Assembly: GCA_947495575.1 (NCBI GenBank) | Contig: CANLZL010000001.1 | Location: forward strand, 496,001-560,000 | Length of the DNA: 64,000 bases | Reading direction: 5' to 3' | From: an uncultured Nioella sp. | GTDB lineage: Bacteria; Pseudomonadota; Alphaproteobacteria; Rhodobacterales; Rhodobacteraceae | Shown here: positions 806-5,892 of the stretch, one piece after another | Position numbering within the stretch: position 1 is the stretch's first letter | Layout of the letters: each line of letters starts with the position of its first letter | The notes under the pieces: generated by a model | Told to the model about the DNA's origin: nothing | Seen by the model: only the letters and a program-made list of their open reading frames with translations | Databases searched by the model: none | Made by a program: the position numbers and the translations under genes

Positions 806-899
806 GCTTTTACTCGTCGCGGTCCCCGGCTGTCCGCAAACCGTTTGTTAACCCCTAAATTGTAAAGAATGAGGCTCATACCTCGTAGGAGCCGAGAAA

Positions 900-1487
900 A
901 TGCATGGTTTGGTAAACCGCGCCCTGCAAGGGTTTTTGGTTGATACCTATGGATCCGATCTTTGGAGGGACGTGGTGGCGGACGCCAACTTGCCCGCAGA
1001 GGGGTTCGAATCCATGATGCATTACGACGACGCCTTGACCGATGCGACCATCACCGTTGCAGTGACAGCTCTCAAAAAAGACCGCCAAACTTTTTTGGAG
1101 GATTTGGGAACCTATTTATTAGCCCATAAAAATCAGGAAGGTTTGCGGCGGTTGATGCGGTTCGGAGGGGAAACCTTCTTTGAGTTTCTAATCTCACTGG
1201 ATGACCTTTCCGGCCGGGCGCAACTGGCCGTACCTGACCTTGATATGCCCGCGCTTGAGATACGGCAAAAAGGGCTCTCTCGGTTTGAAATACGGGTGAA
1301 ATGGAGCATCAAAGGCGCGGGGTTTGTGTTTCTCGGCGCGCTTCGGGCCATGGCAGACGATTATGGAACATTGGCCATCTTTGATGTTGAGGCAGGCGAT
1401 GACGGGTCAGATTTGGTGGTGATCGAATTGTTGGACACTGCTTTTGCTGAAGGCAAAAGCTTCTCGCTTGGGGCGCAACCGATATGA
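900..1487 (+). CDS. H-NOX (heme NO-binding) domain protein lacking the usual heme ligand
   Basis: The 195-residue protein is a stand-alone H-NOX fold: it opens with MHGLVNRALQ and carries FFEFLISLDDL and a C-terminal ALRAMADDYG segment, all typical. H-NOX domains normally bind heme through a histidine in LDxLHxxV and through a YxSxR motif. Here the histidine position reads LDDLSGRA (S104), and the YxSxR region reads KWSIK (K134, S136, K138). Heme binding is therefore doubtful, or uses another residue. A TAGGAG ribosome site precedes the ATG. The gene overlaps the next one by four bases, so sensor and diguanylate cyclase are translationally coupled, as in other H-NOX/cyclase pairs where the H-NOX controls the partner in response to nitric oxide. 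Family assignment is firm; ligand is uncertain. Confidence 0.85.
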   Translation: MHGLVNRALQGFLVDTYGSDLWRDVVADANLPAEGFESMMHYDDALTDATITVAVTALKKDRQTFLEDLGTYLLAHKNQEGLRRLMRFGGETFFEFLISLDDLSGRAQLAVPDLDMPALEIRQKGLSRFEIRVKWSIKGAGFVFLGALRAMADDYGTLAIFDVEAGDDGSDLVVIELLDTAFAEGKSFSLGAQPI

Positions 1488-2515
1488 CCCGAATTTTCGA
1501 CCCCAAGGATCGTGTCATCGGCCTGTCCGGTTCGGCTCTGGACGTTGTGATGCCGATGCACCTTTGGTTTGGCCCGGGCGGGCAGATCATCCGCGTTGGC
1601 CCGACATTGGCAAAGATTGCAGGTGACCAAGACTTACGGGGCCGCGATCTTTTTGACGTGATACATTTGCGGCGCCCAAGAGCCGGCAAGACACTGGCCC
1701 AGATATTATCGTTGCAGGGCGCACGGCTGAGCCTCACGATCACTGGATGCGAGAATGCGCAGTTTCGCGGCGTCGTTGTGGCAATGCCAGCAGGCGCGGG
1801 CGGGTTGATCAACCTGTCCCTCGGCGTGTCCTTCGCAAAAACCGTTGAAGAACGTGGGCTGACACTTAAGGATTTCTCGCCCTGCGACCAAACAGTCGAC
1901 TTGCTTTACCTGCGCGAAGCCAACCTTGCGATCACCCGAGAATCCCGCAACCTGACTGAGCGGTTGCAGGCGGCAAAACTATCGGCCGAGAAACAGGCTC
2001 AGACCGACGTGCTGACAGGTCTGCAAAATCGTCGCGCCATGGATGAGGCCCTTAAAACAATGGTCGATCAGCCGAATCCGCGGTTCGGTTTAATGCATCT
2101 TGACCTCGACTTCTTCAAGGAAGTTAACGACACGTTCGGCCATGCTGCTGGCGACCATGTATTGGCACATGTCGCAGATATTCTGCGGGCCGAGGTCCGC
2201 AAAACAGACATCGTGGCCCGCGTTGGCGGCGACGAATTTGTTCTGCTGTTTCGCGATTGTGATGACCCTGACCTGTTGGACACGATTGCAAACCGGCTGA
2301 TCGCTCGCCTTGAAGTACCTACTCAATTCGACGGTAAAGCATGCCAGATATCGGCAAGCGCTGGCTCGGTCCTGTCGTCAAAATATGACAATCCAACGCC
2401 AGACAAATTGCTCAACGATGCAGATGTTGCGCTTTATACATCCAAAAACAGGGGCCGTGCGCAGCACACCCTGTTTCATGATGAGTTGATGTTGCCGGTT
2501 CCCGCCGCGCGCTAG
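1484..2515 (+). CDS. Diguanylate cyclase with HNOBA (H-NOX-associated PAS-like) domain
   Basis: The 343-residue protein has three parts. Residues about 17-130 match the HNOBA domain that normally partners H-NOX (MPMHLWFGPGGQIIRVGPTL, then DLFDVIHLRRP). Residues about 140-172 form a signalling helix. Residues about 173-335 are a GGDEF domain beginning TDVLTGLQNRRAMDEAL. The active-site signature is intact (RVGGDEF, 248-252) and an RxxD product-inhibition site (RKTD, 239-242) sits five residues before it, so it should make c-di-GMP from two GTP and be feedback-inhibited. There are no membrane segments, so the enzyme is cytoplasmic. Its start overlaps the H-NOX stop (ATGA). By family logic the H-NOX binds the HNOBA domain and sets cyclase activity. 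Confidence 0.9.
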   Translation: MTRIFDPKDRVIGLSGSALDVVMPMHLWFGPGGQIIRVGPTLAKIAGDQDLRGRDLFDVIHLRRPRAGKTLAQILSLQGARLSLTITGCENAQFRGVVVAMPAGAGGLINLSLGVSFAKTVEERGLTLKDFSPCDQTVDLLYLREANLAITRESRNLTERLQAAKLSAEKQAQTDVLTGLQNRRAMDEALKTMVDQPNPRFGLMHLDLDFFKEVNDTFGHAAGDHVLAHVADILRAEVRKTDIVARVGGDEFVLLFRDCDDPDLLDTIANRLIARLEVPTQFDGKACQISASAGSVLSSKYDNPTPDKLLNDADVALYTSKNRGRAQHTLFHDELMLPVPAAR

Positions 2516-2516
2516 G

Positions 2517-2555
2517 CCTGAACGGCGGCGAAAACGTTATTCCGTTGGGTTCAGG
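2517..2555. terminator. Possible bidirectional hairpin between convergent genes
   Basis: A seven-base inverted repeat, CCTGAAC and GTTCAGG, flanks a 25-base loop between the convergent diguanylate cyclase and carB genes, reaching into the carB stop codon. There is no T-tract, so this is only a weak terminator candidate. Confidence 0.25.
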
Positions 2556-5500
2556 GCGCAGTGCTGGGCTGTAGGCTCTGGATGTTCATGCGGCCTTCTT
2601 GAGCTGCCTGAATGGCCTGCGCTGCGGCGTTGGACCCGGCAGCGGTGGTGTAATAGGGGATCTTGTCGAACAGCGCGACCGAGCGAATTTCACGGCTATC
2701 CTCAACCGCTTGCGCGCCTTCGGTGGTGTTCATGACAAGGACAATTTCCCCGTCTTTCAACATGTCGACAATATTGGGGCGGCCCTCATAAACCTTGTTG
2801 ACGGTGGCACAGGTCATCCCATGCTCTGCCAGCCAATTTGCTGTTCCCCGCGTTCCAATCAACTCAAATCCGATGTCCAACAGGGTTTTTGCTGCTTCCA
2901 GCATCATCTCGCCTTTGTCGGAATCCTTGATCGAGATGAAAACCTTGCCGCTGTTTGGCAAAACTGTTCCGGCCCCAAGCTGCGCCTTCAGGAAGGCCCG
3001 TGGGAAGGAGATATCCCAGCCCATGACCTCACCGGTTGAGCGCATTTCTGGCCCAAGGATCGTATCAACTCCGGGGAAACGGGCAAAGGGCATCACGGCC
3101 TCTTTGACCGAGAACCACGGCATGGCCGGGTCGGCCAGGGTCATGGGGTCAGCCATAGGCAATGTACCGGGTGTCGCCCCCTCAGGGTAAGCGGCGCGGG
3201 TCGGGAAATTGGACAGCGGTTCACCGGCCATCAGTCGGGCGGCGATAGAGGCGATGGCGCTGTCTGTCGCCTTGGCTACGAAGGGAACGGTGCGCGACGC
3301 ACGCGGGTTCACTTCGATCAAGTAGATCTCACCGTCTTTGACTGCGTATTGCACATTCATTAGGCCAACCACTTTCAGCGCCCGGGCCAATGCAACAGTT
3401 TGGGTTTTCAACTCTTCGATGATGTCGGCAGACAAGCTGTGGGGCGGCAGTGAACAGGCGCTGTCGCCAGAATGCACTCCGGCCTCCTCGATATGCTGCA
3501 TAATGCCCGCAACATGGACGTTCTGGCCGTCTGACAGCGCATCAACGTCGCATTCAATCGCACCGTCGAGATAGCTGTCGAGCAACACCGGGCTGTCGCC
3601 CGAGACCACAACCGCCTCTGCGATGTAGCGCTCTAGCTGAGCGGTGTCGCGCACGATCTCCATCGCGCGACCACCCAACACGTATGAGGGGCGGATCACC
3701 AGCGGATAGCCAAGTTTTTCCGCCTCTTCGCGCGCCTGATCATCAGTCGAGGCAATTGCATTCACGGGCTGTTTCAAGCCCAGGTCCTGAACAAGCTCCT
3801 GGAAACGCTCGCGGTCTTCTGCAAGATCAATCGCGTCTGGCGTCGTGCCAAGGATCGGAATACCCGCCTCTTGCAGCGCATTGGCCAGTTTCAGTGGAGT
3901 CTGCCCTCCGAACTGAACGATAACGCCATGCAGCGTGCCGTTTTCCTGCTCGACCCGCATGATTTCCATGACATGTTCAAAGGTCAACGGCTCAAAATAC
4001 AGCCGATCCGAGGTATCGTAATCGGTTGAAACCGTCTCAGGGTTGCAATTGACCATGATGGTTTCATAGCCCGCATCGGTCAGCGCAAAACAGGCGTGAC
4101 AGCAGCAATAATCAAACTCGATCCCCTGACCGATCCGGTTGGGGCCACCGCCCAGAATAACGACCTTTTTCTTATCGGATGGACGTGCCTCGCATTCGGG
4201 CTCACCCATAACAGGCGTCTCATATGTCGAATACATATAAGGGGTTTGCGCTTCGAATTCCGCAGCGCATGTATCAATGCGTTTGAACTGTGCGGTCACA
4301 CCCAGGTTGATCCGGGCCCGGCGGACCTGATCTTCGTCCCGGCCTGTCAGTTTGGCCAGACGCGCATCGGTAAAGCCCATCATTTTGACAGCACGCAGGC
4401 CCTCTTCGGTGACTGGAAGACCGTCGCGACGGATGTTTTCTTCCATCTCGATGATTTCGCGAATGCGCGCCAGAAACCAAGGGTCAAAGGCTGTGATCGC
4501 CTGGATTTCATCGTTTGAGAACCCTTCGCGCATTGCCTGCGCAATCACCCGGATTCGGTCAGGTGTCTGCTTGCTGAGCGCGGCCGATACCGCGGCTTTG
4601 TCTGGCGCGCCCGGAATGGCAATTTCGTCAAACCCGGTCAGTCCCGTTTCCATCGACGCCAGCGCTTTTTGCATGGATTCGTGGATGGTGCGGCCGATGG
4701 ACATGGCCTCACCTACAGATTTCATCGCCGTTGTTAGATGGGGCTCGCTGCCTTGGAATTTTTCAAAGGCAAAGCGTGGGATCTTGGTGACGACATAGTC
4801 GATGGTCGGTTCAAAGCTGGCTGGCGTCACCTTGGTGATGTCGTTGTCCAGTTCGTCCAGAGTGTAGCCCACAGCCAGTTTTGCCGCGATCTTGGCAATC
4901 GGGAAACCGGTCGCTTTGGAGGCCAGCGCCGAAGACCGCGATACACGCGGGTTCATTTCAATCACAACCATACGACCATCGGCCGGGTTCACCGCCCATT
5001 GCACATTCGAGCCGCCGGTTTCCACGCCGATCTCGCGCAGAACGGCAATCGAGCCGTTGCGCATGATCTGGTATTCTTTGTCGGTCAGCGTCAGGGCAGG
5101 GGCCACGGTGATGGAATCGCCGGTATGCACACCCATGGGATCTATGTTTTCAATGGAACAGACGATAATTGCGTTGTCGGCTTTGTCGCGGACAACCTCC
5201 ATCTCGTATTCTTTCCAGCCAAGCAGGCTTTCATCGACGAGGATCTGGTTGACCGGAGAGGCATCCATACCCGAGCGGCAGAAATGGATGTAGTCTTCCC
5301 GGTTATAGGCAACGCCGCCGCCAGTTCCACCAAGGGTAAAGGCAGGGCGGATAATCGCAGGCAGGCCAATTTCTTCCAGCGCGTCCAGCGCGATTTGCAC
5401 GCCCGCATCCAGATCGGCTTTTCCGCCTTCTTTCTTTGGGGCCGTAATGATCGTTGCTTTCGGGTTTTCCAGCCCGATCCGGACCATAGCCTCGCGGAAC

Positions 5501-5892
5501 AGCTTGCGGTCTTCGGCCATTTCGATGGCCTCGCGCTTGGCGCCAATCATCTCAACGCCGAATTCGCCAAGGACGCCCATTTCCTCAAGCGCCAGCGATG
5601 TATTCAGACCAGTTTGCCCACCCATGGTGGGCAGCAGAGCGTCGGGGCGTTCTTTTTCGATGATCTTGGCAACTACTTCGGGCGTGATTGGTTCGATATA
5701 CGTTGCATCTGCCAAGCCGGGGTCGGTCATGATCGTTGCCGGGTTCGAGTTCACCAGAATAACCCGGTATCCTTCCTCGCGCAGCGCCTTGCAGGCTTGT
5801 GCGCCTGAGTAGTCAAATTCGCAAGCCTGTCCGATGACAATCGGCCCCGCGCCAATAATCATGATCGACTGGATATCTGTTCTCTTTGGCAT
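2551..5892 (-). CDS. carB: Carbamoyl-phosphate synthase large subunit
   Basis: This 1113-residue enzyme makes carbamoyl phosphate from glutamine-derived ammonia, bicarbonate and two ATP, for arginine and pyrimidine synthesis. The internal duplication is clear. The first half opens with [17 protein letters not shown] and has [10 protein letters not shown]. The second half opens with [19 protein letters not shown] and has the ATP-grasp loop [10 protein letters not shown]. The C-terminal MGS-like allosteric domain contains [19 protein letters not shown]. Length is close to the family, slightly long as in other alphaproteobacteria. The small subunit carA is not in this window, so the subunits are unlinked or lie apart. 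The gene is monocistronic and divergent from pabB. Confidence 0.98.

Follow-up and report, generated by a model that had tools for sequence, protein, structure and literature searches.

The H-NOX protein encoded near the start of the window (the whole stretch of DNA analysed, 64,000 nucleotides from an uncultured Nioella sp.) lacks the proximal histidine, and it is rather probable that it serves the cyclase encoded by the adjacent gene as a regulatory partner without a ligand residue for heme. The support observed for this is the fold, the missing ligand residues, the overlap of the two genes, selection on close relatives and conservation throughout the lineage. The importance of a His-less H-NOX in vivo is taken from print, where it concerns Paracoccus denitrificans (PMC5588039, PMC12582929). 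Counted against a heme-free partner are the 16 of 203 relatives that keep the histidine and the Dinoroseobacter shibae H-NOX, which is reported to respond to NO. The published papers were used in the form of extracts, and what is said of them refers to those extracts.

Table 1. Positions of the features within the window.
Feature	Position	Strand	Remarks
Ribosome-binding-site-like AGGAG	887..891	+	8 bases upstream of the H-NOX ATG; sequence reading
His-less H-NOX (HNOB) protein	900..1487	+	195 aa, ATG start; profile match, alignment, model
Codon TCC, Ser104	1209..1211	+	proximal-histidine position; alignment
V133-K134-W135-S136-I137	1296..1310	+	in place of YxSxR; Alr2278 alignment
ATGA overlap	1484..1487	+	H-NOX stop / cyclase start; sequence reading
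Partner diguanylate cyclase (predicted)	1484..2515	+	343 aa; HNOBA residues 17-84, helix 136-172, GGDEF domain 172-326

The H-NOX protein of the window

The Pfam model HNOB (PF07700) matched residues 2-155 with E=3.9e-20 and 72.8 bits against a cut-off of 25.5, and NCBIfam models gave no match up to an E of 1. A profile search of the window's genome found no other HNOB match. The AlphaFold2 model, built with 90 aligned sequences, had a mean pLDDT of 92.4. Foldseek matched it to H-NOX crystal structures (3tf8 at E 2.1e-14), and structural alignment with the Nostoc structure 2o09 gave Z 20.8 and an rmsd of 2.4 Å over 178 residues at 27% identity. As judged from the profile and the predicted model, the protein has the H-NOX fold, as an earlier note on this DNA had claimed.

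The conformation of the model was also considered. With VIA-align the top matches were NO-state structures of sGC beta (8hbf, Z 21.8, rmsd 2.2; 8hbh, Z 21.6, rmsd 2.3), while the inactive 8hbe gave Z 20.4 and an rmsd of 9.6 over a longer stretch. The rmsd values from Foldseek were 2.4 (8hbf), 2.6 (8hbh), 2.6 (8hbe) and 5.4 (unliganded 6jt0). An NO-activated-like shape was dropped since these signs are mixed and a predicted model is no evidence of a conformational state.

In an alignment from residue 1 with Nostoc Alr2278, LDNLH becomes LDDLS, and S104, on helix 93-110 of the model, falls at the proximal histidine as the earlier note had said. The YxSxR motif holds the heme propionates. The note had read its replacement as KWSIK (134-138); the aligned stretch starts one residue earlier, and YxSxR is gone whichever register is used. 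Tyr occupies column 133 in all 28 canonical H-NOX proteins compared. The note had named another histidine at the proximal position as a finding that would refute it, and none was found on the helix: the histidines are at 2, 41 and 76 only, and a second histidine as proximal ligand was rejected. There is no Cys among the 195 residues, and a Cys-based redox sensor of the kind seen in V. cholerae H-NOX was likewise rejected. Given that both the proximal histidine and YxSxR are missing, classical heme ligation is unlikely, which agrees with the note.

It is nonetheless conceivable, if unlikely, that heme is still bound through some other axial ligand, be it water, an imidazole from outside or a side chain of the partner, and that NO is still sensed. 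The fold is intact over the 178 residues aligned to 2o09, and P117, G70 and G146 are conserved in the lineage as in canonical H-NOX proteins; G70 and G146 are invariant in the 90 aligned proteins and only presumed to correspond to the glycine hinges of Lee-Lopez & Yukl. By its title, entry 2kil is a structure of S. oneidensis H-NOX with the H103G mutation, determined in the Fe(II)CO state, and heme can on this showing enter an H-NOX without the proximal histidine under some conditions. The P. denitrificans work, as far as the extracts go, assumes control by NO (PMC5588039, PMC8738867), and the D. shibae H-NOX is given as a heme-based protein despite having no YxSxR (PMC8846402). Against this, the proximal helix of the window protein carries neither His nor Cys, the D. 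shibae protein keeps its histidine, and site 104 is free to vary in the subclade of the window protein, as described below.

The proximal site among relatives

The earlier note had regarded a ligand-less copy as unusual, a view that the survey overturned. HNOB was matched in 221 of 295 Rhodobacteraceae genomes. Among the 203 genomes with a lineage copy and a readable site, a count that includes the window's own genome and is the sum of two fetch-and-align rounds, the proximal residue was Pro in 145, His in 16, Gln in 10, Arg in 8, Asn in 6, Ser in 5, Ala in 4, Gly in 3, Thr and Glu in 2 each, and Lys and Asp in 1 each. Histidine is absent in 187 and kept in 7.9%, in agreement with the figure of below 10% in the extract on the published Group 5 (PMC8738867), and the His-less class itself is in print (PMC5588039, PMC8738867).

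Lineage and canonical proteins were separated by hand on profile score and motif, the divergent second-round rows L294, L307 and L309 being counted as lineage. Of the 221 genomes, 84 lay outside the first fetch; 80 of these were searched in the second round and G076 was added via the class search. G221, G289 and G293 stand outside the residue count, as do 13 genomes from which a canonical copy alone had been fetched, and L306 (incomplete) and L272 (canonical) were excluded from the 203. The first-round canonical proteins have His in 27 of 28 cases, in columns that are less sure as these rows were aligned with the lineage profile. Both types can coexist, a lineage copy being present in 14 of the 27 first-round genomes with a canonical H-NOX. 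Three H-NOX frames looked broken, that on contig C34 of G037 (L308) being in two pieces and those of G271 (L108) and G177 (L289) having one internal stop each.

A collection of named genomes contributed 67 loci, mostly with Rhodobacterales titles and five titled only Alphaproteobacteria or Pseudomonadota; seven of its proteins were identical to proteins from the family genomes. Searching 385 genomes of the class gave eight with matches at E <= 1e-10. The four below 1e-46 were all Rhodobacteraceae, and three of the other four (L226-L228) have His in the alignments.

Ser104 is common to the window protein and its three nearest relatives L003, L034 and L158, where the codons are TCT, TCG and TCG. 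Since serine recurs in the nearest relatives with different codons, S104 is no sequencing slip or chance. The four proteins cluster with a support of 88 in a quick tree of 187 rows, made with column 104 removed and L094, L100, L108 and L055 excluded. In the 17-member subclade of this tree that contains the window protein (SH-aLRT 89), site 104 reads A,A,D,A,S,S,S,S,G,R,H,H,P,H,E,R,H. With eight different residues (A, D, S, G, R, H, P and E) in so small a group, heme ligation is not the feature that has been retained. Over the whole tree the site underwent at least 13 changes, as compared with a mean of 18.4 (range 16-19) in 100 within-lineage shuffles. From a His root, equal costs gave 2 losses and 11 gains, and a gain cost of at least 5 gave 33 losses. 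The direction depends on the costs and repeated loss is therefore not claimed.

For the Ser104 proteins L034 and L158 the NG86 method gave dN 0.116, dS 0.889 and a ratio of 0.13, the comparison with the window protein itself being saturated. Their cyclases gave an equal ratio (dN 0.114, dS 0.874). These values bear on whether the window protein is the remnant of an earlier NO sensor and is now decaying, a reading to which we attach very little credence. Both heme motifs are gone and there are the broken-looking frames in three sampled relatives, as decay would have it. However, the open frame is of normal length, the two Ser104 relatives have a dN/dS of only ~0.13, the cyclase is adjacent at nearly every locus (see below), and disruption of the P. 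denitrificans gene has phenotypes according to the extracts (PMC5588039, PMC12582929).

No YxSxR was present in any of 262 lineage rows, in which duplicates between the two rounds were retained, nor in the 20 His-containing rows among them, as against 27 of 28 canonical proteins. Taken by itself, the loss says little against heme, since D. shibae and the other lineage members with the histidine have lost the motif also. Other residues are kept at 92-100% in the lineage, namely E67-D68, R83-R84-L85, R87-F88, G90, R106, R149, M151-A-D-D-Y-G156 and L158. This signature from E67 to L158 is equally kept in the His-containing members; among canonical proteins its residues reach 18% at most, apart from G156 (54%). 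The exact octet E67 D68 R83 R84 R87 D153 D154 Y155 occurs in 231 of the 262 lineage rows and in none of the 28 canonical proteins.

Two further columns were noted. Of the 183 distinct lineage proteins of the first round, 97 have Cys at column 133 (V133 in the window protein); the published account, in the extract, states that no Cys is conserved. Column 98, six residues before the proximal site, is His in 130 of 241 His-less rows and 11 of 20 His-containing rows. This histidine was rejected as a substitute ligand since it is equally common in both groups and the window protein has Ile there.

The emptied pocket might instead take up a putative new ligand, such as a lipid, a metabolite or a tetrapyrrole other than heme, making the protein a sensor of something else. 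The kept fold, the purifying selection on close relatives and the lineage-specific signature are all consistent with this, and we would call it improbable. A more speculative view of the whole family, offered tentatively and with some doubt, is that the pair is at root no gas sensor. The charged signature (E67-D68, R83/R84/R87, R106, R149...D153-D154-Y155) would then be a protein-protein surface and heme an option retained in some 8% of the genomes with a lineage copy, the pocket being reused for a cytoplasmic ligand or in a structural role.

The window's genome has a match to NnrS (G000 contig C3:28531-29661), an NO-related membrane protein, and given this match NO may still be relevant to the cell. 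No link between the histidine and NnrS was found among first-round genomes (9 of 15 with His, 54 of 109 without; Fisher P 0.58). The NirK model TIGR02376 scored above its cut-off in 39 of 295 genomes and had no match in the window's genome.

The adjacent cyclase and the proposed regulation

The earlier note had paired the H-NOX with an HNOBA-GGDEF cyclase, and this stands: the gene adjoins with an ATGA overlap and both domains were matched (HNOBA at 30.6 bits, cut-off 23.4; GGDEF at 145.6 bits). The translation has a GGDEF motif and an RxxD I-site, and the cyclase activity is a predicted one. In the model of the partner a PAS-like N-terminal part of mixed strands and helices is followed by a long helix and then by the cyclase domain, and the N-terminal part matches residues 213-370 of sGC beta-1 weakly (E 0.15).

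A cyclase lies directly downstream of the H-NOX gene at 185 of 190 lineage loci compared with 3 of 28 canonical ones, and two of the remaining five lineage loci have no room for it. Counting the letters directly, the stop and start overlap as ATGA in 106 and as GTGA in 22 of the 185. The GGDEF motif is present in 182 of these cyclases and the I-site in 181. Out of 65 partner proteins that were aligned, 51 matched HNOBA, the window's being one of the 51.

Upstream of the H-NOX gene lies a HAD-family hydrolase (53-805, +), a relative of which was found at 56 of 190 lineage loci, a lower bound as many loci are short. Downstream of the cyclase there is a large convergent gene (2551-5892), carbamoyl-phosphate-synthase-like by eye from its translation.

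The mechanism we favour is of the Group 5 type, in which the H-NOX fold has lost its heme ligand and would have kept a role as protein partner of the HNOBA/PAS-GGDEF cyclase. Heme-NO chemistry most likely plays no part in its action. The H-NOX would contact the cyclase at its HNOBA/PAS region and signalling helix and thereby set, probably lower, the output of c-di-GMP. The set point could come from the level of H-NOX, from the PAS domain of the partner or from some other ligand. The conserved signature residues are named targets for mutation.

Comparison with known H-NOX systems

In the extract of Kumar & Spiro (2017) the H-NOX proteins of P. denitrificans and R. sphaeroides are both described as being without the axial histidine. 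A P. denitrificans hnoX mutant lost its biofilm in part, lacked BapA and consumed NO faster, and a dgcAB mutant was the opposite in all three respects (PMC5588039). The same authors proposed that NO inhibits DgcA via the His-less H-NOX, which counts against a heme-free reading (PMC5588039). Islam et al. (2025) confirmed the biofilm defect and, in the extract, c-di-GMP was not detectable (PMC12582929). As c-di-GMP could not be measured there, even P. denitrificans offers no proof that the cyclase is inhibited. An NO-sensor-like pair is found across a family, its sensor mostly without the usual heme-holding residue, yet the gene is retained and is relevant to biofilm in P. denitrificans.

Lee-Lopez & Yukl (2022) describe a very large Group 5, typified by P. 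denitrificans HnoX (Pden_3719), with His in fewer than 10%, mostly Pro and, in the extract, no conserved Cys; how it senses anything is posed as a question and the pathway is called likely NO-bound (PMC8738867). The window protein has the replaced proximal histidine, the absence of Cys and the adjacent GGDEF gene of this group, to which it would belong by these features, the published group being a similarity network with edges at E < 1e-47. Seven Paracoccus loci (L091, L093, L095-L099) resemble the window protein in the missing proximal histidine. All seven have Pro where the window protein has Ser, and they are 32-37% identical to it, Pden_3719 itself being outside this comparison.

A further known system is that of D. 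shibae. The first 8000 bases of the G036 contig are 100% identical to the D. shibae plasmid NC_009959.1, and as L101 is the only HNOB match in this genome it is taken to be the studied Dshi_2815. It shares lineage and gene order with the window protein at 47% identity and is also without YxSxR. Unlike the window protein it keeps the proximal histidine (LDDLHDRARLA), and in the extracts its NO-bound form is reported to inhibit Dgc1 (PMC7232146, PMC8846402). The R. capsulatus homologue is called a NO-sensor protein (PMC7232146). The sole lineage member found to be reported as NO-responsive is thus an exception that has the histidine, so that its NO result is not automatically transferable to the His-less relatives, for which control by NO should not be assumed.

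The His-less class was known already; what is added is a Ser-type member, the lineage-wide loss of YxSxR, the signature, the coupling to the cyclase and the place of D. shibae as the exception. Canonical Alr2278 (2o09) has the fold in common with the window protein and possesses both the histidine and YxSxR, of which the window protein has neither. The alpha subunit of sGC carries a heme-less H-NOX domain. The order of H-NOX, H-NOXA/PAS, helix and cyclase is sGC-like, a likeness to be read as analogy and not as membership: unlike sGC, the window pair consists of separate proteins, and its enzyme is predicted to make c-di-GMP and not cGMP.
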